Virus record (IMG/VR): IMGVR_UViG_3300042564_001469 | Location: 1 to 64,000 of that record | Direction: 5' to 3' (one strand) | DNA: 64,000 nucleotides | DNA from: a virus | Made by a program: the position numbers and the translations under genes | Shown: positions 712-63,093 of the stretch, piece by piece | How the letters are laid out: each line of letters begins with the position of its first letter | Numbering within the stretch: position 1 is the first letter of the stretch | The notes under the pieces: model-generated | The model's input: the letters and a program-made list of their open reading frames with translations, nothing else | Database searches by the model: none | What the model was told of the DNA's origin: nothing

Positions 712-3468
712 TTATAAATAGTTTGTTATATTAAATTGAATAACCGAGTTAATATCGGTTGTCACATTAATTTTATCACCACTAGTAATTAACGTTGTCG
801 GTGTGTACGGTAAATTATTAACTAATATTGTTGTTGTTGGACTATTAACCAAATTAATAATACTATCAATTGAAATATCATTAGGTGCGTAAATCTCAAG
901 ATCCAATGAATCCATAAAATCCAACGTCCATTGTGTGTATATAATAAATGCTGTTGTTGCTGTTAACCCACTCTCAATAATAATGTCACCTTGAAAAGTT
1001 CTTGTGTTACCACTACCTGGTGCAACAACATCCTTTAATCTTATTTTATTTGTTGTAATATCTAACTCAATTGTTAGTTCATCGGTTTCGGCAAGACCAG
1101 CGATTGCGATATTAAGATCTTCAGTTAAACCTGATACAGGAAAATTACCGATTGTATTATAATCAAAAATAATTGTACCACCAGTGTAATATGTTCCACC
1201 AGTAACATAAGTATCACCGGTAATATTAACACCATTAACGTTTAGTGTTGTAGCACTAAGTGAATTAACAGTTGTGTTACCAGTAACTATTAAATCACCG
1301 TTTATTGTTTGATTAGTTGTGAAATTATTATTAACATCAACAAACGCCAAATTTGAATATTCGTTTGATGATAAATGTAAATATTCGTTTGGTGCACCAC
1401 CCTGTAAACCTAGTAGATCATTATGAAATGTTACTTGTGTTGATTGGAACACCGTAACAAAAGCACTTTGTGTCAACCCTGTTGTTTGACCAACACCAAT
1501 AATAATTCTACCAACTAAAAATGCGTGAGAAGTAACCAGTTCTGGTAATATAGGCTCTACAGATAACTCGGCTTCAGCAACATTAGTATAACCACTCGTA
1601 CCAAAAACCTCATAAATATGATCCTCATATTCTTGACCTCTAAAATACCAATTTACTAAATAGGTTCCAGTGTTTGCCGAAACTAAATTAGTACCATCGT
1701 CATAATAGGTATTATTAATTGTTGTTGCTGTTGTGTCATACACCCAATTACCACCAATATGGTAATTTTGAAAAAAGATGTCATCATATGAATTGATAGC
1801 AATTAATTGTTGTTGATAAACACCATTCCATACAACACCACTTGAAATCTCAACAATTCCTGTGGATCCGCTTAAACTTAACTGACACCCACTTTCGTGA
1901 GCAAACCTATCTGTTGATAATATTCTATCATTAATTTTATTTGGTAAACCCGATCCGTAATTACCAAACTCTAATACGTGTATAAAATTATTTGCCCTAT
2001 AGACAATTAAATACAACACGATATCACTATCGTTTATTGTTGTGTCGTTATTTAATATTACATAATTTGGGGAACCACCACTATAATTAACTGCAATATA
2101 GTTAGTATCGTTATTCGCCAAACCATACACACCACCAACAACATTATATAAATTTAAAGGACCTTCAAAATCTGGATTTTTAAATAGAGCAACTTGTGTT
2201 GTTGGTAACGTTATTGTTCCGTCACCATTGTCAACCCAATTTGTCGCACCACTTGTTATACCAGCATAATATTGTGGTAAATTTTGATATGTCGTTGCGG
2301 ATATTACATTAACATTTAAATCCTGAGTAAATAATGTATTTCCAGTTACAGTACCACCACTTAAAGGTAAATAATCAAATGTTGTTTGACCAGTATAATC
2401 AATACCGAAATTTGGATAAGACCCATTAATTTCTATATTTGTACCCCCAGTTATCGTTACAATTTGATCTGTAACACCGGTCACAACTTGATTTGTATTA
2501 TCTAAACCTAAATTAATTATAGGTATTCCAGAACCAATTGTGTTTATGTTTAATAAACCATCAATAACAATATCACCTTGAAACGTTCTAGTACCACCAC
2601 TACCTGCTGCGACAATATCTTTTAATCTTATTTTATTTGTTAAAACGTCTAACTCAATTGTCAATTCATCGGTCTCAGCAAGTCCAGCAATTGCGTTGTT
2701 AAGATCTTCGGTTAAACCTGTTACAGGAAAATCACCCCCTGTGTTATAATCAAAAATAATAGTACCCCCAGTATAGTAAGTACCCCCAGTAACATAAGTA
2801 TCACCAGTAATATTAACACCATTAACGTTTAGTGTGTTTGCGGTTAAACCCGATGTAAATATTGTATCACCTTGAAAAGTCCTTGTACCACCACTACCTG
2901 GTGCGACAATATCCTTTAATCTAATTTTATTTGTTGAAACATCTAACTCAATAGTTAACTCGTCGGCTTCAGCAAGTCCAGCAATAGCATTGTTAAGATC
3001 TTCAGTTAAACCTGATACAGGAAAATTACCAATTGTGTTATAATCAAACACAATCGTACCTCCAGTATAGTAAGTACCACCAGTAACATATGTGTCACCA
3101 GTAATGTTAATACCATTAACGTTTAATGTTGTCGCTGTAACACCTTGTGTAAAAATTGTGTTGCCAGTTACGGTTCCACCAGTAAACGTACCACTACCAC
3201 CACCAGTTTGAAATAATGACCAATCTGAAATATTACCACTCCAAGGAGATGGGTTTAGTTTGTAATACGTAGTACCACCACTAACTCCGACGACCATTCC
3301 GGCACGTCTTCTTAGGTTTGGTATTGAATTTAAATCAGATAATGTGTTAACGTTTCTAAATCCGTCAATACCATATAACGGATCTATCACCGGATATTGA
3401 TCTGTAATATCGGTTGGTGATATAAAACCATACACCTCAACTCCACCAGAAAAAGAAAAACTCATCAT
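712..3468 (-). CDS. Modular tail fiber protein with three repeated 100-residue modules
   Basis: 918 residues. Residues 1-75 form an N-terminal domain (EVYGFISPTD, YPVIDPLYGIDGFRNV, RRRAGMVVGVSGG) that recurs in the 163-residue protein at 16195-16686, so it is probably an attachment or base domain. A module of about 100 residues (NVNGVNITGDTYVTGGTYY, FDYNT, GLTEDLNNAIAGLAE, DELTIELD, TNKIRLKDIVA, RTFQGD) occurs at about 101-200, 201-300 and 775-875. The C-terminus (WTLDFMDS) matches the following gene. Gly/Thr-rich beta composition is typical of trimeric phage fibers. No enzymatic motif seen. It starts 9 nt after the stop of the PT-rich protein, in one operon. Tail fiber is a confident class; the exact fiber is not known. 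Confidence 0.85.
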   Translation of the reverse strand: MMSFSFSGGVEVYGFISPTDITDQYPVIDPLYGIDGFRNVNTLSDLNSIPNLRRRAGMVVGVSGGTTYYKLNPSPWSGNISDWSLFQTGGGSGTFTGGTVTGNTIFTQGVTATTLNVNGINITGDTYVTGGTYYTGGTIVFDYNTIGNFPVSGLTEDLNNAIAGLAEADELTIELDVSTNKIRLKDIVAPGSGGTRTFQGDTIFTSGLTANTLNVNGVNITGDTYVTGGTYYTGGTIIFDYNTGGDFPVTGLTEDLNNAIAGLAETDELTIELDVLTNKIRLKDIVAAGSGGTRTFQGDIVIDGLLNINTIGSGIPIINLGLDNTNQVVTGVTDQIVTITGGTNIEINGSYPNFGIDYTGQTTFDYLPLSGGTVTGNTLFTQDLNVNVISATTYQNLPQYYAGITSGATNWVDNGDGTITLPTTQVALFKNPDFEGPLNLYNVVGGVYGLANNDTNYIAVNYSGGSPNYVILNNDTTINDSDIVLYLIVYRANNFIHVLEFGNYGSGLPNKINDRILSTDRFAHESGCQLSLSGSTGIVEISSGVVWNGVYQQQLIAINSYDDIFFQNYHIGGNWVYDTTATTINNTYYDDGTNLVSANTGTYLVNWYFRGQEYEDHIYEVFGTSGYTNVAEAELSVEPILPELVTSHAFLVGRIIIGVGQTTGLTQSAFVTVFQSTQVTFHNDLLGLQGGAPNEYLHLSSNEYSNLAFVDVNNNFTTNQTINGDLIVTGNTTVNSLSATTLNVNGVNITGDTYVTGGTYYTGGTIIFDYNTIGNFPVSGLTEDLNIAIAGLAETDELTIELDITTNKIRLKDVVAPGSGNTRTFQGDIIIESGLTATTAFIIYTQWTLDFMDSLDLEIYAPNDISIDSIINLVNSPTTTILVNNLPYTPTTLITSGDKINVTTDINSVIQFNITNYL
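985..1285 (-). repeat. Fiber module, third copy
   Basis: Codes residues about 775-875 of the 918-residue fiber protein and repeats the TGDTYVTGGTYYTGG / TNKIRLKD / TRTFQGD module at DNA and protein level. Limits are approximate. Confidence 0.8.
2569..2868 (-). repeat. Fiber module, second copy
   Basis: Codes residues about 201-300 of the fiber protein. It lies directly in tandem with the copy at 2869-3168. Confidence 0.8.
2869..3168 (-). repeat. Fiber module, first copy
   Basis: Codes residues about 101-200. A fourth copy lies 57 kb away in the gene at 59980-60993, and a partial copy in the gene at 13099-15663. Confidence 0.8.
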
Positions 3469-3477
3469 ATCTATTTT

Positions 3478-4266
3478 TTAATTACATAACCAACAATCTG
3501 TATCACCAAAGAATGGATAGAATGTTCTATATATATTGTATGTTATTGGGAAACCATTTCCGTCTATAATAATTATTGTCCCAATATTATTTATTGGTAT
3601 ATTAAACCCACTACAACCGGCATCACTATCTCTAAATCCTGTTGGTTGTGATAATAATATTGGTATTAAAATATAACCATACGCACTTCCAGTTTGAAAT
3701 GTAACATATGAATTTGTTGGGTTGTTTGTTAAAACAAAAGTAAACGTTGACACATCACCACTTGTTATTGTTGAACCACTAAATTTACCAAAATAAATAC
3801 CAGACGGTGACGGTAACAAACTTGTTGTTGGTGTCGGTGTTGGCGTAGGTGTTTTACACGGACTTGACGTTGGTGTCGGTGTTGGTGTCCTTGTGGGGGT
3901 TCTTGTTGGTTGTGGTGTCTTAGTAGGTGTGGGTGTCGGTGTCTTTGTTGGACACGGATCGTTTGTTGGTGTTGGTGTCGGTGTTGTCGTAGGTGTTGGG
4001 GTAACAGTCCTAGTGGGTGTTACAGTTGGTGTTGGTGTCGGTGTTGGTCTAGGTACATTCATAATTTTTGAACAATCTGAACCATCAACCAATATTGTAT
4101 AACTACCGTAAACATCCCTTGGTGGTGTTAATAACCCTGAATTAAATACAAACGGTAATGTAACAACACCAAAATTAATAACATCATTTGAATTGTCTGG
4201 TTTAAATAAAATTGTTGCCAACTCACCATCATATGATACACTATTTATTGTTATTAATTGACTCAT
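3478..4266 (-). CDS. Virion protein with Pro/Thr-rich linker and Cys-containing tip domain
   Basis: 262 residues. Residues 1-70 are a compact beta-rich domain ending near [12 protein letters not shown]. Residues about 72-150 are a Pro/Thr-rich linker ([12 protein letters not shown], broken by DPCPTKT and SSPCKT). Residues about 157-262 are a C-terminal domain ([45 protein letters not shown]). The same tip domain ends the 1006-residue protein at 16707-19727 (YYGKYLK, YMLIPNTMQQPTIFRNSN, GCSGFIIP, YYVYRSF, VWICD). Linker plus tip suggests a surface-exposed virion adhesin or decoration. No signal peptide. First gene of a three-gene unit with a promoter-like motif 13 nt before its ATG. Confidence 0.75.
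3815..4060 (-). repeat. Low-complexity Pro/Thr-coding tract
   Basis: The plus strand reads as GGTGTTGGTGTCGGTGTT-like units, giving PTPTPT on the minus strand. Similar tracts lie at about 17040-17150, 17505-17560 and 18600-18655 in the 1006-residue gene. The long plus-strand reading frame across it (valine/glycine only) is an artefact of this composition. Confidence 0.85.
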
Positions 4267-34391: not shown

Positions 34392-35453
34392 ATGAATCAA
34401 GAACAAATTTCAAAAGTAGAACGTTCTATTGAGAACATGCGAAACAAACAAAATCGGATTTATTTTTTGGTACAAGACACTAAAGGAAACGCTAAGGCTT
34501 CTGTTAGATATATTTACCAAATGGCGATGTCCTTAAAAGAATCTGGATATAATTCCATTATATTACACGAAAAACCAGATTACCAAGGTGTGTCTGAGTG
34601 GTTAGGTGAACACTATATGACAGAGTTACCACATAAATCAATTGACGGTACTAGTCTTGAGATTTCACCAGAAGATTTATTGGTTATACCAGAAATCTAT
34701 GGTTTTGTTATGGAACAAATTAAAAACGCACCTTGTGGTAAAATCGTTCTTTGTCAATCATACGATTATATTTTTGATGGTTTACAACCAGGTGAGAATT
34801 GGTCAAATTTTGGTTTTTTAAAATGTATTACAACATCACAAAGACAAAAAGAATGGGTAGAAAAAACAATGAGAAATGTTTCTGTTGATGTTGTTGAACC
34901 AGTAATTACTGACAACTTCAAAAAACAAGCATTACCTCCTAAAACAATTATTAATATCCATACAAGAGATCATAGAGATACTACAAACACAATTAAAGCG
35001 TTTTATTCTAGGTTTCCACAATATAGATGGTTTACCTTTAGAGATTTAAGAGGATTGTCTGAAGAAGAATTTGCACAAAGAATGTCTGAAAGTTTTGTTT
35101 CAGTTTGGGTTGATGATAATTCCGCTTATGGTACGTTTCCACTAGAATCAATTAAAATGGGAATTCCTGTTGTTGGTGTAGTACCAAATATGATTCCAGA
35201 ATGGATGAACGAAAACAATGGTATTTGGATTAACAATAAAAATATTTTAGTTGATGTTATCGCAGACTACATCCAAAATTGGTTAGAGGATAATGTTAGT
35301 CCCGAATTATACACTGAAATGGATAAAACAGCGGAGTCATTAATAACAAGTGAAACATTCACAGAAAACGTAGTATCAACGTTTGATAAAATGATTACAA
35401 CAAGATTAACTAGTTTTGAAGAACAATTAAATAAATTAGAAACAATTGAATAA
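34392..35453 (+). CDS. GT-B-type glycosyltransferase
   Basis: 353 residues. N-terminal half QNRIYFLVQDTKGNAKASVR and YNSIILHEKPDYQGVSEWLG, then acceptor-side segments; C-terminal half has the donor pattern STESFVSVWVDDNSAYGTFP and LESIKMGIPVVGVVPN. Looks like a GT4-family member with a weak donor site. Followed 1 nt later by a GT-A gene. Confidence 0.75.
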   Translation: MNQEQISKVERSIENMRNKQNRIYFLVQDTKGNAKASVRYIYQMAMSLKESGYNSIILHEKPDYQGVSEWLGEHYMTELPHKSIDGTSLEISPEDLLVIPEIYGFVMEQIKNAPCGKIVLCQSYDYIFDGLQPGENWSNFGFLKCITTSQRQKEWVEKTMRNVSVDVVEPVITDNFKKQALPPKTIINIHTRDHRDTTNTIKAFYSRFPQYRWFTFRDLRGLSEEEFAQRMSESFVSVWVDDNSAYGTFPLESIKMGIPVVGVVPNMIPEWMNENNGIWINNKNILVDVIADYIQNWLEDNVSPELYTEMDKTAESLITSETFTENVVSTFDKMITTRLTSFEEQLNKLETIE

Positions 35454-35454
35454 T

Positions 35455-36255
35455 ATGGAAAATAAAATATCAGTAGTATTACCAATTAAAAGTGGTAAAT
35501 TAGCACAATTTGATGAATACTTCGCAAAAAGTGTGTTGTCAGTTAAAAATCAAGAATCATATGTTAATGAATTAGTGATAGTTCATACTGATGAGGATTT
35601 GTTAGTTAATTTTTTAGACAAATTTGACTTTAGTGGTTTAACAGTTAATCGTGTTTTATGGACAGAAAGTCCTAGTTTTGCAGAACAAGTTAACGAAGGT
35701 GTTAAACAATCAACAAGTAAATGGGTGTCGTTATTAGAATTTGACGATGAATATTCAAATATTTGGTTTAAAAACGTTAAAAATTATATGGATATTTACA
35801 AATCTGTTGATGCGTTTTTACCAATTGTTGTTGATGTTGATGAAAAAGGTGTTTTCGCAGGGTTTACAAACGAAGCAACTTTTGCTGCAAACTTTACAAC
35901 TGAGATGGGTATCTTAACAAACGAAACATTACAGACATATCAAAACTTCCAAATATCGGGTCTTGTTATCAGTAAGGATAAATTTTTAGAATATGGTGGA
36001 TTTAAATCAAATATGAAATTAACATTTGGTTATGAGTTCTTTTTACGAATGACAAATTCATCAGTTAACTTTATGACAATACCAAAAATCGGTTACAAAC
36101 ATATGAATATGCGTGAAGGATCTATATTTTGGAATTACAAGTATAGTGAAGACAGATTGGTTGAGGATGAGGTAAAATTTTGGATTGATTCAGCAAGAAA
36201 GGAATATTTATTTATTACTCAACGAGAGATAAATTATGACCCCCAAGAAGTTTAA
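35455..36255 (+). CDS. GT2-like (GT-A) glycosyltransferase
   Basis: 266 residues from ATG 35455. ISVVLPIKSGKLAQFDEYFA and QESYVNELVIVHTDE are GT2 N-terminus; acidic motif at KWVSLLEFDDEYSN; YEFFLRMTNSSVNF and GYKHMNMREGS toward the end. Shares its stop with the start of the sigma-factor gene (TAATG). Substrate unknown. Confidence 0.75.
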   Translation: MENKISVVLPIKSGKLAQFDEYFAKSVLSVKNQESYVNELVIVHTDEDLLVNFLDKFDFSGLTVNRVLWTESPSFAEQVNEGVKQSTSKWVSLLEFDDEYSNIWFKNVKNYMDIYKSVDAFLPIVVDVDEKGVFAGFTNEATFAANFTTEMGILTNETLQTYQNFQISGLVISKDKFLEYGGFKSNMKLTFGYEFFLRMTNSSVNFMTIPKIGYKHMNMREGSIFWNYKYSEDRLVEDEVKFWIDSARKEYLFITQREINYDPQEV

Positions 36256-51725: not shown

Positions 51726-53555
51726 TTATCTCAATTCTCTCAAATCAAATGTACGAACACCATCAACAGTGATACGTGCATAGAAACGGTTGTTCACCAT
51801 CTTTTTCGCGTATCTTGTCATTATCCCTTTAATAGGTGTAAAGTTAAATGGATTGTACATTGTAGGTGTTAATTGTAGAGGAACGTACGGTGCATAGATG
51901 TAACCAGTGTCCAATAGAGAAGTACCTTTGTGACCAATCAAGATTTGATTTGGTGGGAAGTAAGGATCTCTATAAACTTGGTAACGACCTTGTAATGTAC
52001 CAACTCTCTCAATACCCATATTGAACTGGTCTTGCTCAGGTGAAGCATTAGATACGTGGAAGTATTCTAAGTCATCAAAAATTGCAGAAACCTCAGATGA
52101 AACAACAATCCAGTTAGCACCACCTCTCAAAGTAGATTTGTGGATTTGTGCTGACAATTGGTTGATTGCTGTAATCAAAGTTTGATTCCAGTCTTTTTGA
52201 GTGTAAGAAGTTGTTAAGTTCAATCTTCTCCATCCGTTGTAATCCCAACGTAAGTCCCAAGCAGCACCTTTACGTAAGTCACGTAAAATTTCACGGTCAA
52301 TTTCTGCGGCAACTTGTTCTGACAATAATGCTGTTAATTCAGCTTCAGCGTCAATATTATGGAATGCAGCAACGTCTTGTGCTAATTCTGGAGACCATTG
52401 TGCTCTCAATTTTCTTTCAGTTACAGAAACAGTTACTGATTCTAAATCAAAAGAAACTTCACCAATTTGGTCTTCAAATTCCAAGTTTTTATATCTTCTA
52501 AATACAGCTGTGAATGAATCACCAGATGCAATAGCATCAATTGTTGTACCGGTGTAACCATCTAATGAGTCAGCACCACAATCAAAACATGCTGGGCAAG
52601 AAAGATCAACTTCTAAATAGATACAACCAGTTGCATCACAGATATCGTAATATGAACCACCATTTCCTGTTGAAGGGAATGAAGTTTGTGTTCTTTCACC
52701 ATATTTAACAATACCTTTACCATATTGTTGTGTAACAACTCTAAATAGTAATGGTGTTCCAGCAGGAACTTTACAAGGTGAATCAGCGTTAACCACTAAA
52801 CCACTATCTGCAATAATTTTAAGATCTGACAAGAAAGTTTCAGTATCCATTTCATTACCATCAGGACCGATTAATTTACCAGCACCAGAATTTGCAAAAC
52901 CACATAAAGAAACAATAACTTTTCTTGTGTTACCTGTGTAACCAGAGAAATTATTACCAGCGTTAACTAATTCACTACCTGACCAACGTTGTACAGTAGT
53001 ACCTTCTGTTACAGCTGTCCATTGACCTTTTGAATAGTCAAACAATCCTGGAGGATCCAAACCAGCCTCACCACCTTCATAAAATAAATCATAAAGATTT
53101 TTAGCGTACGGTGTGCCTTGAGATGAACCTGGGTAACCAGCGTCTTTCTCAGTAGCGTTAGAGTTTGGTGCTCCATATGGTGCGAAATGTTCACCACCAT
53201 TAGCGGTTAAATTGTTATATCCTTGGATACGAGGTACGAAGAAAAACAATTTACCGATTGGTAAATTCATCGCTTGTACTGATACGATGTCATTTGCTAA
53301 CAATTTAGAGAAAACTCGTCTTACGATAGGAAATACAACTGTTTCAAAAGCTCCGTTAGAACCTTCACCTGTTGCTTCGTTAATCAAAAAAGACGCTTGG
53401 TTTTCATACAACTGCGCTACATTTTCTTTTTGGTGACCTTTAAGGCCTTCTAGGAATCCTAATTTATCCCATTTGTTAATTGTGTCTTCTTTGATAACTT
53501 TAAGGTGTTTTAACCCGATGTTACCTACAAGACCTGATTCTAATAATGCTCCCAT
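51726..53555 (-). CDS. Major capsid protein, T4 gp23-like
   Basis: 609 residues, slightly longer than T4 gp23. The conserved N-terminal motif KENVAQLYENQASFLINEAT at about 42-61, then VVFPIVRRVFSKLLANDIVS, VQAMNLPIGKLFFFVPRI. SVTVSVTERKLRAQWSPELA, QDVAAFHNIDAEAELTALLS and the end ITVDGVRTFDLREL fit the family. Forms the head shell after cleavage by the prohead protease. Sits directly after the scaffold-like gene as in T4. Terminator follows the stop. Confidence 0.95.
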   Translation of the reverse strand: MGALLESGLVGNIGLKHLKVIKEDTINKWDKLGFLEGLKGHQKENVAQLYENQASFLINEATGEGSNGAFETVVFPIVRRVFSKLLANDIVSVQAMNLPIGKLFFFVPRIQGYNNLTANGGEHFAPYGAPNSNATEKDAGYPGSSQGTPYAKNLYDLFYEGGEAGLDPPGLFDYSKGQWTAVTEGTTVQRWSGSELVNAGNNFSGYTGNTRKVIVSLCGFANSGAGKLIGPDGNEMDTETFLSDLKIIADSGLVVNADSPCKVPAGTPLLFRVVTQQYGKGIVKYGERTQTSFPSTGNGGSYYDICDATGCIYLEVDLSCPACFDCGADSLDGYTGTTIDAIASGDSFTAVFRRYKNLEFEDQIGEVSFDLESVTVSVTERKLRAQWSPELAQDVAAFHNIDAEAELTALLSEQVAAEIDREILRDLRKGAAWDLRWDYNGWRRLNLTTSYTQKDWNQTLITAINQLSAQIHKSTLRGGANWIVVSSEVSAIFDDLEYFHVSNASPEQDQFNMGIERVGTLQGRYQVYRDPYFPPNQILIGHKGTSLLDTGYIYAPYVPLQLTPTMYNPFNFTPIKGIMTRYAKKMVNNRFYARITVDGVRTFDLRELR

Positions 53556-58029: not shown

Positions 58030-59850
58030 TCAACCATTTAGTAATTTGTCCAATTCTTTTTCAATTAATCCTAATGAATTACGTCCTTTAGATAAATCAA
58101 TGAAATCATCCTCTTCTAAATTACTACTTTCAACTAATATATCATAATTTGATTTCTCAACACTATCCATCAAAGGTGCCTCACCCCCACTTGGTGGCGG
58201 TGGTGGCATTTCACCCATTCCTCCTTCTGCTGGTGGCGGTGGTGGCGGCGCTCCTCCTTCTGCTGGTGGAGTTGTTGTATCACCCGTTGTTGTTTTGTAT
58301 AATTTATCAACATTATCAAACATACCTGTATGTGTAATAATTGTTGGTGTATTCGTTAATTCAGCAGCAACAGCACGTTCTAATCTAATTTGTTGGATTT
58401 CAAGTTTAATATCTTCATCAGAAAATCCAAAGATGTGTTTTTTAGCCCAAGTTGCTGAGGTTGGTTGTAATGTGTTTGGTATTTCAGTAACTAAATCTTT
58501 ATATAGTAAAACTTTTTCTTTCCATACTGACACCATTAATAAATCCGCTTGTTTTGATGGGTTTGTTAATCCTAATGTGAAGTTATTTAACTCGTCTTCA
58601 AATCCTAGTATAAATAAATGGATAATTGCAATTTTATTTAATTCGGCAATCATACTTTTTTGGATTTTATTGATTGTTCTAGCAAATCTAATATCCATTA
58701 AAGATAAGTTATCACCACTACCAACAGGTTCTTCAAAACCTAAAAATGCTTTTGGTATTCTTAGTGCTGTAAGTAATTTCTTTTGTATATACTCAATATC
58801 CGCGATTTCTGATAGGTTTTGAGCACCAGGTAAGGTTTCAATCGGCATGGTTTGTCCTGGATCTCGTACTGGAATAAAATAATCTTGATCAACCGCCATT
58901 TGATTGTATCTCATATCAACATTACCGGTTTTACTATCAACAACTTGGTCTCGTTTGAATTTATTCGCAACACGTTGTACGTAAGGTTCAACGTCCTTAT
59001 CGTCCATATTTCCAACAAATACTTTAAATACTCTTCGTTCTGGTGCTCGTGACGTTCTGTAAATTAACATCGCGTCTTCCGCTAATACTAACTGTTTCCA
59101 AACACGACGTGCTTTCTCTAACATTGATGTACCATAAGGTAATTTTCTATCATCACCAAGTAGTCTAAAATGTGCCATTTCCCACGTATTAAACTCCATA
59201 TCTTTGGTTTTCCAGACAAACCTTAACCCTTTACTGTTTACATCGGATGGGGTGGGGGAACTAACAACAGCGTTCATTGTTCTTACCGACATTCCTCTCT
59301 CTAATCGTTCAATCTCAATATTAGGTAGTTGTAAACAACCAGTAATCCCTTTTTCTTCGTCTAATTTTAGGTATACGAAATTATCGCCATACTTGCATGT
59401 GTTTCTAATCCACATTGGTAGATTGATATTAATGTCTAAAATGTTATTAAATAAATCGGCCAAAATTGATTTAATTCTTTTTGATTCAGAATATATCTGT
59501 AACACATAACCATCTTGATTTGGTGTTGTTGATTCTTCTGAATAAATGTCTAATGCTGTTGATATTTCCGGAGTAAATTCCATCGATTCGTAATCATAAA
59601 AAGCGGCAATTCTATTTGGTTCATAATATATCGCTTGGGCGTATAAGTTGTTTTCTATTTTTTGCCATTGATTACTTAAAAATAAACTTTGTTGATATTC
59701 TAATTTTTCTTTATCGTATTGTGCTTTATCTGTTGTTTTTAATAAAACATTTTTATCCAATGTCACTGACGCTTGATCCATACCCAAAAGAGAGTTTGGT
59801 CCAAATGTTTTGGACAATTTTTGCCATATCGTTAGATTTTGTTTTTCCAT
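58030..59850 (-). CDS. Portal protein, T4 gp20-like
   Basis: 606 residues. Motifs: AAFYDYESMEFTPEISTALD, KAFLGFEEPVGSGDNLSLMD, IRFARTINKIQKSMIAELNK and FTLGLTNPSKQADLLMVSVW match gp20-type portals, as does KYGDNFVYLKLDEEKGITGC. The C-terminal 60 residues include poly-Pro/Gly stretches (GAPPPPPPAEGG) not usual for T4. Forms the dodecameric portal ring at the head vertex. Adjacent to capsid genes in expected order. Promoter-like motif 29 nt upstream. Confidence 0.9.
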   Translation of the reverse strand: MEKQNLTIWQKLSKTFGPNSLLGMDQASVTLDKNVLLKTTDKAQYDKEKLEYQQSLFLSNQWQKIENNLYAQAIYYEPNRIAAFYDYESMEFTPEISTALDIYSEESTTPNQDGYVLQIYSESKRIKSILADLFNNILDININLPMWIRNTCKYGDNFVYLKLDEEKGITGCLQLPNIEIERLERGMSVRTMNAVVSSPTPSDVNSKGLRFVWKTKDMEFNTWEMAHFRLLGDDRKLPYGTSMLEKARRVWKQLVLAEDAMLIYRTSRAPERRVFKVFVGNMDDKDVEPYVQRVANKFKRDQVVDSKTGNVDMRYNQMAVDQDYFIPVRDPGQTMPIETLPGAQNLSEIADIEYIQKKLLTALRIPKAFLGFEEPVGSGDNLSLMDIRFARTINKIQKSMIAELNKIAIIHLFILGFEDELNNFTLGLTNPSKQADLLMVSVWKEKVLLYKDLVTEIPNTLQPTSATWAKKHIFGFSDEDIKLEIQQIRLERAVAAELTNTPTIITHTGMFDNVDKLYKTTTGDTTTPPAEGGAPPPPPPAEGGMGEMPPPPPSGGEAPLMDSVEKSNYDILVESSNLEEDDFIDLSKGRNSLGLIEKELDKLLNG

Positions 59851-59979: not shown

Positions 59980-60993
59980 TTATATACTAAATTTTCTTAC
60001 TGCACGAACATAGAAGCCGGAGTTCTTAACGCCGATGCTGGTAACCCCAATGTCGAAGGTGAAGTACCACGCGCGGTTGCTGACGAGCTCCGTACTACTC
60101 CAATAAATATTAGTAGAAACTATAGTAGCACCAACAATAGGTCCTAAACTAGAATTACCAGACAAAGTTCTATTTACATTAAATCTATTTTGCCAAAGTA
60201 AACTTAATTCATCAATAGCTGGTAGATACCAGTCTGTTTGTCCACCATTACTACTTGCATCACACAAAAACGCAGCTCCTGTAGTAGCACCTGACTGTGT
60301 TATTATGGCAGTTGTATTAGAAGAGCCATCCCATGTAGTTCCAGCAGTTGACCCAATTACTACATTATCTATGTTTGACCAAACAGATGACGTTGATATA
60401 TTAGTTATATCAACTACTAAATAATTTTCATTTGCACCATCTTTATATCTATGAAATATTACACCACCTTGTGATGCAACATATTGACCAATTTGATATG
60501 TAAACCCACCAGTTGTTCCAGTTACAACCTCACCACTTGAATCCAATCCCAAGTTAATAACTGGTGAACCTGAACCAATTGTATCCAAATTCAATGTACC
60601 CCCACTTATTGCGAAATCACCCTGGAATGTTCTTGTCCCACCAGTTGTTTCAGCAACGATTTCCTTTAATTCAATTTTATTTGTATCTAAATTTAATGTG
60701 ATTGTTTGTTCATCAGTTTCAGCAAGTCCCGCAATTTCATTATTTAAATCTTCGGTTAATCCACTAACTTCAAAATTACTACCAGTATTATAATCAAAAA
60801 TAATTGTTCCACCAGTAAAATATGTTCCACCAGTTACGTAAGTATCAGTAACACCAGAGTTAACATAATTTTTTATCTGGTCTATTGTTATTTTATTGGT
60901 GTCATCAGTACTAATATTAACAATCGGTAACACATCATTAGCGGTTATCGCACTAAATTGTATTTGTGTTAAATCGGTTATTCTTTTGTCCAT
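59980..60993 (-). CDS. Fiber protein with DUF1566/C-lectin-type variable C-terminus
   Basis: 337 residues. N-terminal attachment domain (DKRITDLTQIQFSAITANDV, TNKITIDQIKNYVNSG). Residues about 45-125 hold a copy of the fiber module (TYVTGGTYFTGGTIIFDYNT, GLTEDLNNEIAGLAE, TNKIELKEIVAE, TRTFQGD). The C-terminal domain (WYLPAIDELSLLWQNR, IYWSSTELVSNRAWYFT, FYVRAVRKFSI) has the DUF1566/Lcl fold used as a target by diversity-generating retroelements. The last part of the gene is strikingly GC-rich with NNC codons (see 60001-60096). Promoter motif 17 nt upstream. Confidence 0.85.
   Translation of the reverse strand: MDKRITDLTQIQFSAITANDVLPIVNISTDDTNKITIDQIKNYVNSGVTDTYVTGGTYFTGGTIIFDYNTGSNFEVSGLTEDLNNEIAGLAETDEQTITLNLDTNKIELKEIVAETTGGTRTFQGDFAISGGTLNLDTIGSGSPVINLGLDSSGEVVTGTTGGFTYQIGQYVASQGGVIFHRYKDGANENYLVVDITNISTSSVWSNIDNVVIGSTAGTTWDGSSNTTAIITQSGATTGAAFLCDASSNGGQTDWYLPAIDELSLLWQNRFNVNRTLSGNSSLGPIVGATIVSTNIYWSSTELVSNRAWYFTFDIGVTSIGVKNSGFYVRAVRKFSI
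60001..60096 (-). other. Putative DGR variable region (VR)
   Basis: By hand count about 56% G+C over 90 bases inside an AT-rich genome. Sense codons run CTC GTC AGC AAC CGC, then TAC TTC ACC TTC GAC, ACC AGC ATC GGC and AAC TCC GGC TTC: third base C almost throughout with variable first and second bases, as expected when AAC codons of a template are mutated at adenines. Ends with the family-conserved YVRAVR segment. No template repeat or reverse transcriptase seen in this window. Confidence 0.7.
60618..60860 (-). repeat. Fiber module, distant copy
   Basis: Codes TDTYVTGGTYFTGG / DEQTITLN / TNKIELKE / TRTFQGD, the same module as at 2569-3168. Confidence 0.8.
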
Positions 60994-61320: not shown

Positions 61321-63093
61321 TTAACGTTTACCAAATAACCAACTATATTCAATATAATCATTTCTTGTTGGGTTATTATGTGTTCCACCAAACCTATCAT
61401 TCATAACATTTGTATTTGGTATTGCAGGATCAAAGTGAATTTGTTTAGATATATTATTATTATCGGCAACAGTCCAAGACTCAATCATTATTTTTGTTTT
61501 TTCTGTTACTTTTTCTAGTTTTTGGAATGCGGATTCACCAACGTAAATTGCCATTGATATACCCATTATAAGGTCATCGTGTTGTCCTTTTTGATGATCT
61601 GGTCTACCATTCACATAGACAAACGTATTCATTTCATTGTATAGACGTACACTTTTTATTTTAAACTTATGTCTAACATATTCTTCAAACGCCGCAATAA
61701 TTTGAACTCGTTTATTATTAAAATTAATACCAGGAATTTTATCAACACTAGTTTTATTGACAGCCCAAATATTCATTGAATCAACACCTTCAATATAAAA
61801 CCCACTATAACCCAATTCTTGCATTTTCCTTACCGTAGTAATACCCATACCACCAGTAATATCTACAACACAAAACGCATTATATATTATTCCCCACTTA
61901 TATGCGATTTCAGCTAAAGCGTCTGGGGGTATTTTTCCGACATATTCTAAAACTTGTTCTCGTTCATCAAAATCTACAATTTGAATAGATGAGAAATCCT
62001 CACTATCACCTCTACTAACGTCTATACCAATAATATACTTATGTCCTGGTACTGGATCTTTCCAAATCCATAAAGCATTACCCATTAATTTAGTTGGTGC
62101 GTCTTCAAGTGTGTTTGTTTTTATATAGTCCAATTGTTTTGAATCAAATACGTTATCACCGGATCCTAAAAACTCACAATTTAACTCTTGGTTAATTTTT
62201 CGTTTATCATATTTTAATTTTTTAACCATTTTTTCATACCAAGATGAACAAGGTTTGTAACCCTCTTTGAATAGTTCCTTAATCTTATCATAATCTCTAT
62301 TGTACGGATTTAAATCTTCAAAAGATATATTCTTTGTTTGATCTCTTTCTTCTTTATTTAATAAAAAATCAACAAGATCGTCTGTTGGTACCAAATATAA
62401 ATCTTTTGAGTATCTTGGATCTTTCCACCAAAACATCTCAGAGATTTTAAAATTATTCATCCCTTTTGTTGCTTGGTTATATATTTCATAATAAATTGCA
62501 TCATAACCATTTGGTGTTGATACAACAATAACCTTACCACCTGTTGATAAGGATGCCATACATGCTGCCCAGAAATCACCATCCGCCTCAATAAAGGCAG
62601 CCTCATCAAATACAAGTATTGTTGGTGTATAACCCCTTAACGCATCTCGTGATGTTGCAACGGCTTTAACCTCACAACCATTTGTTAGTTTATAGTGTCG
62701 TTGTGAATTCTTATCCGCGGAAAATCCAGTACCAACCCAATTCGGCCATTGATCAACAAAACCTCTAATTTTATTTGCCATCTCCATTGATGTATCAAGT
62801 TTGTTGGCGATAATTAGGATTTTTTCTGGACGTTCTTTTTTTGCGAAAACTAATCTTTTTGACATCCATGCTGCTGTCACAGTAGAAACTCCAGCCTGAC
62901 GATATTTTAATGCAATATTTTCTTCGTAATTTTCATAATCATCTAGTAATGAAATTTGATCTGGAAATAGTTCTAATGGTACATATTTTGAAACGGTATT
63001 ATCGTATGTTTGTAAATATGTCCTTAATGCGTATGGTGTATCTTTCATACACTTAACATACTCTAACATTAATTGTTCTTTTGTTAATCCCAT
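61321..63093 (-). CDS. Terminase large subunit, T4 gp17-like
   Basis: 590 residues. ATPase: Walker A-like ALKYRQAGVSTVTAAW (63-71), Walker B TILVFDEAAFIEADGDFW (159-176), with VIVVSTPNGYDAIYYE. Nuclease domain: KYIIGIDVSRGDSEDFSSIQ, FYIEGVDSMNIWAVNKTSVD and HQKGQHDDLIMGISMAIYVG. Packages DNA through the portal with ATP. No small subunit seen in the window; the neighbouring 63171 gene does not look like one. Promoter motif 13 nt upstream. Confidence 0.95.
   Translation of the reverse strand: MGLTKEQLMLEYVKCMKDTPYALRTYLQTYDNTVSKYVPLELFPDQISLLDDYENYEENIALKYRQAGVSTVTAAWMSKRLVFAKKERPEKILIIANKLDTSMEMANKIRGFVDQWPNWVGTGFSADKNSQRHYKLTNGCEVKAVATSRDALRGYTPTILVFDEAAFIEADGDFWAACMASLSTGGKVIVVSTPNGYDAIYYEIYNQATKGMNNFKISEMFWWKDPRYSKDLYLVPTDDLVDFLLNKEERDQTKNISFEDLNPYNRDYDKIKELFKEGYKPCSSWYEKMVKKLKYDKRKINQELNCEFLGSGDNVFDSKQLDYIKTNTLEDAPTKLMGNALWIWKDPVPGHKYIIGIDVSRGDSEDFSSIQIVDFDEREQVLEYVGKIPPDALAEIAYKWGIIYNAFCVVDITGGMGITTVRKMQELGYSGFYIEGVDSMNIWAVNKTSVDKIPGINFNNKRVQIIAAFEEYVRHKFKIKSVRLYNEMNTFVYVNGRPDHQKGQHDDLIMGISMAIYVGESAFQKLEKVTEKTKIMIESWTVADNNNISKQIHFDPAIPNTNVMNDRFGGTHNNPTRNDYIEYSWLFGKR

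Follow-up and report, generated by a model that had tools for sequence, protein, structure and literature searches.

A probable orphan DGR variable region in the adhesin gene of a T4-like phage matches a template repeat in a Bacteroidota bacterium and may be diversified in trans

In the DGR of Bordetella phage BPP-1 (mtd VR, avd, TR, brt) the end of a phage binding-protein gene is rewritten at positions corresponding to template adenines. BPP-1 encodes its cassette beside the variable region (VR) and requires a hairpin after the VR, although a cassette-deleted BPP-1 can be diversified in trans by plasmid-borne avd/TR/brt during infection (PMC3240598). Bacteroidota phages of the gut (Quimbyvirus, Hankyvirus, B. 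uniformis phages) also have hypervariable binding domains, some with distal VRs (PMC12629997), and encode their own reverse transcriptase (RT) and template repeat (TR). Trans action within one bacterial genome has been proposed for Thiohalocapsa PB-PSB1 (PMC10907252), where donor and target are in the same bacterium. Cellular Lcl_C-type DGRs of Bacteroidota have as their target a secreted bacterial protein in cis with Avd, TR and RT. The large survey of DGRs, which starts from the RT, states that remote targets are not detected by its method (PMC8144416), and phages carrying only a target would be invisible to such surveys. Here a VR of this type was characterized in a T4-like phage. It resembles BPP-1 in the adenine-biased change at the end of an adhesin-type gene but differs in that no cassette was found in a near-complete relative. 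It shares with the cellular systems the Lcl_C domain and, for the Chitinophagaceae cassette described below, the TR skeleton outside adenines apart from a few mismatches, but the target is on a phage. Unlike the Thiohalocapsa case, donor and target are in bacterium and phage, respectively. Among the open-access literature searched, which left out subscription papers and most preprints, trans action from a plasmid and within one genome was found but no case of a host DGR acting on phages.

The DNA analyzed (the window) comprised positions 1 to 64,000 of virus record IMGVR_UViG_3300042564_001469, a 68,617-base contig. A sequence-only reading had proposed that positions 60001–60096 are a DGR VR at the end of a fiber gene, on the basis of high G+C content and C-ending codons, and had inferred that RT and template lie elsewhere in the phage genome. 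The compositional observation was confirmed. The 60001–60096 segment is 55.2% G+C compared with 30.5% for the window and 33.4% for the rest of the gene, and only 88 of 63,904 96-base segments reach that value. Similarly, 18 of 30 codons near the end of the gene finish in C compared with 18 of 302 in the rest of the gene. The gene (59980–60993, minus strand) encodes a 337 aa adhesin/fibre-like protein with a Pfam Lcl_C domain at residues 212–333 (E 6e-12). An AlphaFold model of this domain had a pLDDT of only 43, which does not establish a fold of the C-type lectin kind typical of DGR targets, and was not used for a fold search, and a PDB sequence search returned nothing. The gene lies between ORFs encoding a T4-type terminase large subunit (61321–63093, minus strand; Terminase_6N, E 1e-11) and a T4-type gp20 portal protein (58030–59850, minus strand; Portal_T4, E 5e-76), with a Gp23-type capsid gene at 51726–53555, placing the adhesin in the virion-structure block. 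G+C content alone would not prove a VR, as the most G+C-rich 96 bases of the window (66%) are in a Pro/Gly-rich C-terminal part of the portal gene near 58165–58270, which is not a VR.

To identify related sequences and a template, a search for relatives was carried out and gave 18 loci, and a degenerate pattern fixing only non-adenine template bases then identified 32 IMG/VR contigs with one match each and about 22 distinct VRs. None of the 32 contigs had a TR beside the VR, and no stand-alone TR was found in IMG/VR with this adenine-ignoring pattern. All share the frame TATTGGAGTAGTACGGAG-(NNY)5-GCGTGG-NNC..., with changes where a template would have AAC/AAT codons. A DNA search of annotated phages with the end of the gene gave no match. 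The template was inferred from these VRs, and a search of the genomes of 84,980 species with a 36-base piece of it gave one exact hit, a 4.5-kb contig of a Chitinophagaceae genome (locus L070). This contig contains a complete cassette consisting of a secreted Lcl_C protein with a VR (799–1764), Avd (1823–2167; bAvd, E 1e-21), TR (about 2286–2395) and RT (2458–3726; RVT_1, E 3e-18), next to a protein with a type IX secretion sorting domain. A search of IMG/VR for the exact TR start GGAGTAGTACGGAGAACAACA gave no match, but the L070 TR has GAACGACA at this position and would have been missed by that pattern alone. A template made of AAC codons, as anticipated by the sequence-only reading, therefore exists.

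Comparison with the L070 TR demonstrated that the end of the adhesin gene is a genuine VR. The VR spans approximately 105 bases (60105–60001, minus strand), beginning a little outside the segment initially proposed, and differs from the TR at 24 of 43 template adenines but at only 4 of 61 other positions (Fisher p 3.5e-8). The 4 non-adenine mismatches indicate that the actual template of the window VR is a relative of this TR. All other phage VRs but one differ at 0–5 non-adenine bases, six of them at none. To test whether protein-level conservation could account for this match, the same peptide was recoded 20,000 times with phage codon usage, giving 33 matches on average and 43 at most out of 62 non-adenine positions, compared with 58 observed. 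At third positions 32 of 34 matched compared with 9.5 expected. Thus, although YWSSTE...YVRAVR is conserved in protein and other G+C-rich islands exist in the window, a chance island or conservation of an Lcl_C motif alone is excluded, and the DNA itself, not only the protein, comes from such a template. The 5' anchor of the VR, TATTGGAGTAGTACGGAG (60088–60105, minus strand), is identical or has 1 mismatch in 13 records and is unmutated although it holds template adenines (0 of 5 changed), and is presumed to be a homology arm for cDNA integration. The 3' end, GTTCGTGCA (60001–60010, minus strand; GTGCGTGCG in the TR), is G+C-rich and lies at the end of TR/VR homology, where an IMH-like site would be. 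No conserved G+C-rich stem resembling the BPP-1 hairpin was found downstream of the phage VRs.

To determine whether the phage encodes its own machinery, the window record and its relatives were examined for RT, Avd and TR. The window record has no RVT_1 match, but as it is a 68.6-kb fragment, and as distal VRs within DGR-bearing phages are known, a cassette in the unassembled remainder of the genome was considered. A 296-kb contig of a relative with an orthologous adhesin (G005) covers 82% of the window, mostly collinear in long blocks of about 82–95% identity. Its ends overlap by 174 bases with one mismatch and an ORF of 1010 aa runs through the join, so it is probably a complete genome, although this rests on the end overlap and not on reads. 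This contig contains one VR and no RT detectable by Pfam even at E<=1, whereas two cassette-bearing bacterial genomes were detected in the same search. No bAvd match at E<=1 was found in the window record, G005 or two further records (G030, a 79-kb viral record, and G033). Searches for RT motifs and by tblastn gave only a weak RT-like hit at 35500–35706 of the window (E 0.003) and its counterpart in the 296-kb contig, and this was rejected as it lies in a glycosyltransferase-like ORF (window 35446–36255) conserved in the relative. When the VR core of the 296-kb contig was slid along its whole length the best other place had 16 mismatches not explained by a template adenine, which is noise, and the best in the window record had 19, whereas the same scan found the L070 TR with 0; this template scan did not cover the last 123 bases of G033 and 1130 bases of G021. 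No RT was found in any VR contig tested, and in 15 of 19 examined records the VR has at least 3 kb on either side without RT. Close relatives of the L070 RT were not found in IMG/VR, but the L070 RT used as a probe does find DGR-type RTs in 104 annotated phage records, so the absence is meaningful. These data make a cis cassette elsewhere in this phage unlikely. The interpretation of the sequence-only reading was therefore partly supported, being right as to a VR in an adhesin-type gene, and as to the lack of RT and template in this record, but probably wrong in placing RT and template elsewhere in the phage genome. Absence of template and RT from a complete genome had been named beforehand as evidence against a VR; this is what was found in the relative, yet the VR is real, and the result points to diversification in trans.

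Variation among close relatives was next examined. Phage loci L057 and L059 have flanks 98.5–99% identical over 2.6 kb and differ at 21 VR bases, 20 of them at template adenines, with the variation confined to the VR rather than spread over the gene, the latter having been named beforehand as further evidence against a VR. L069 is a third, slightly more distant member with 19–28 adenine differences. By contrast, at L017 (1674–2540) flanks are 84% identical to those of its close relative L007 but the VR is AT-rich (38% G+C) with 25 non-adenine mismatches, which looks like a target that has lost access to its template, as expected if VRs must be refreshed from outside. In the window phage itself the same VR was present in four contigs, so turnover is not seen in this phage. 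An alternative is that phages import already diversified VRs from bacterial DGR target genes by homologous recombination, without retrohoming onto phage DNA. The phage Lcl_C domain is 51% identical over 174 aa to the bacterial DGR target in L070, so the domain has probably moved between the two, and imported VRs would also differ only at template adenines. However, in L057/L059 the exchanged tract ends within about 15 bases of the VR borders with phage-specific flanks kept at 99% on both sides, whereas recombination should often carry variable lengths of bacterial flank. Import therefore appears unlikely, although short exchanges are not excluded.

The source of the RT and TR could also be another mobile element in the same cell (prophage, plasmid or coinfecting phage) rather than the chromosome, and phage and prophage DGRs with RTs up to 46% identical to the L070 RT do exist. 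However, no TR match was found in 50,697 phage or 72,556 plasmid records. Related cassettes occur in several Bacteroidota genomes (including G144, G467, G536 and G1073), and the cassettes of this family found here lie in chromosomal-type neighbourhoods such as HMG-CoA synthase, MoaE, ABC transporter and TonB receptor genes, making a mobile source unlikely. With regard to the host, only 2 of 57 window ORFs had a Shine-Dalgarno motif, and Bacteroidota are generally known to lack such motifs. Portal relatives were found in Flavobacterium and Rhodothermus phages, though also in a Microcystis phage. Both are consistent with a Bacteroidota host but constitute only indirect evidence, and a search of the window for the Bacteroidota promoter motif showed no clear excess.

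Taken together, the interpretation favoured, with reasonable though not full confidence, is that this is an orphan VR in a T4-like phage of Bacteroidota diversified in trans by host-encoded DGRs. In this view the phage supplies only the target, an Lcl_C domain whose last codons keep DNA-level homology to a bacterial TR, and during infection the RT, Avd and TR transcript of a chromosomal DGR would make adenine-mutated cDNA that homes into the phage VR, so that progeny carry variants of the adhesin binding surface without the phage encoding a retroelement. The analysis itself demonstrates adenine-biased derivation from a TR that exists in a bacterium, absence of RT, Avd and TR from a near-complete relative, and VR-confined differences, nearly all at template adenines, between near-identical phages; that a TR-bearing lineage is the host, in the absence of any direct link between this phage and such a host, that its RT acts and homing happens on phage DNA during infection, and that the protein sits on the virion and binds a receptor are inferred. 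Trans diversification of BPP-1 from a plasmid shows that the mechanism is physically possible. If hosts do diversify phage adhesins, a bacterial device for surface diversity is also a resource for its viruses, phage tropism can change without a phage-encoded mutator, and the phage depends on infecting DGR-bearing cells, such that phage VR diversity should vanish on hosts without the RT. The VR skeleton would also be a host-linking signature for uncultivated phages.

A broader possibility, considered somewhat more likely than not, is a widespread strategy in which unrelated Bacteroidota phages carry only the VR-bearing target and use their hosts' chromosomal DGRs as a shared diversification service. 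Record G030 contains two adjacent small Lcl_C ORFs, each with a VR (locus L115, 15668–16336), of which the second matches the L070 template (2/65 non-adenine mismatches) and the first a different bacterial template type (7/63 against G1073, 17/65 against L070). A VR of this second template type (5/62 non-adenine mismatches to the G144 TR) was also present in the 29.9-kb viral contig IMGVR_UViG_3300037110_000098 (locus L125, 380–640), with the end of another Lcl_C ORF just upstream. Loci L046, L049, L054, L057, L059, L061, L062 and L069 are small stand-alone Lcl_C ORFs (107–143 aa) with fresh VRs, and in L069 the ORF is near uracil-DNA-glycosylase-like and helicase-like ORFs, so some targets may not be virion proteins. 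Bacteroidota genomes (loci L127, L130 and L139–L143) also hold Lcl_C VR-like stretches with no RT in the approximately 3 kb retrieved, and these may represent remote cellular targets or phage-derived contigs.
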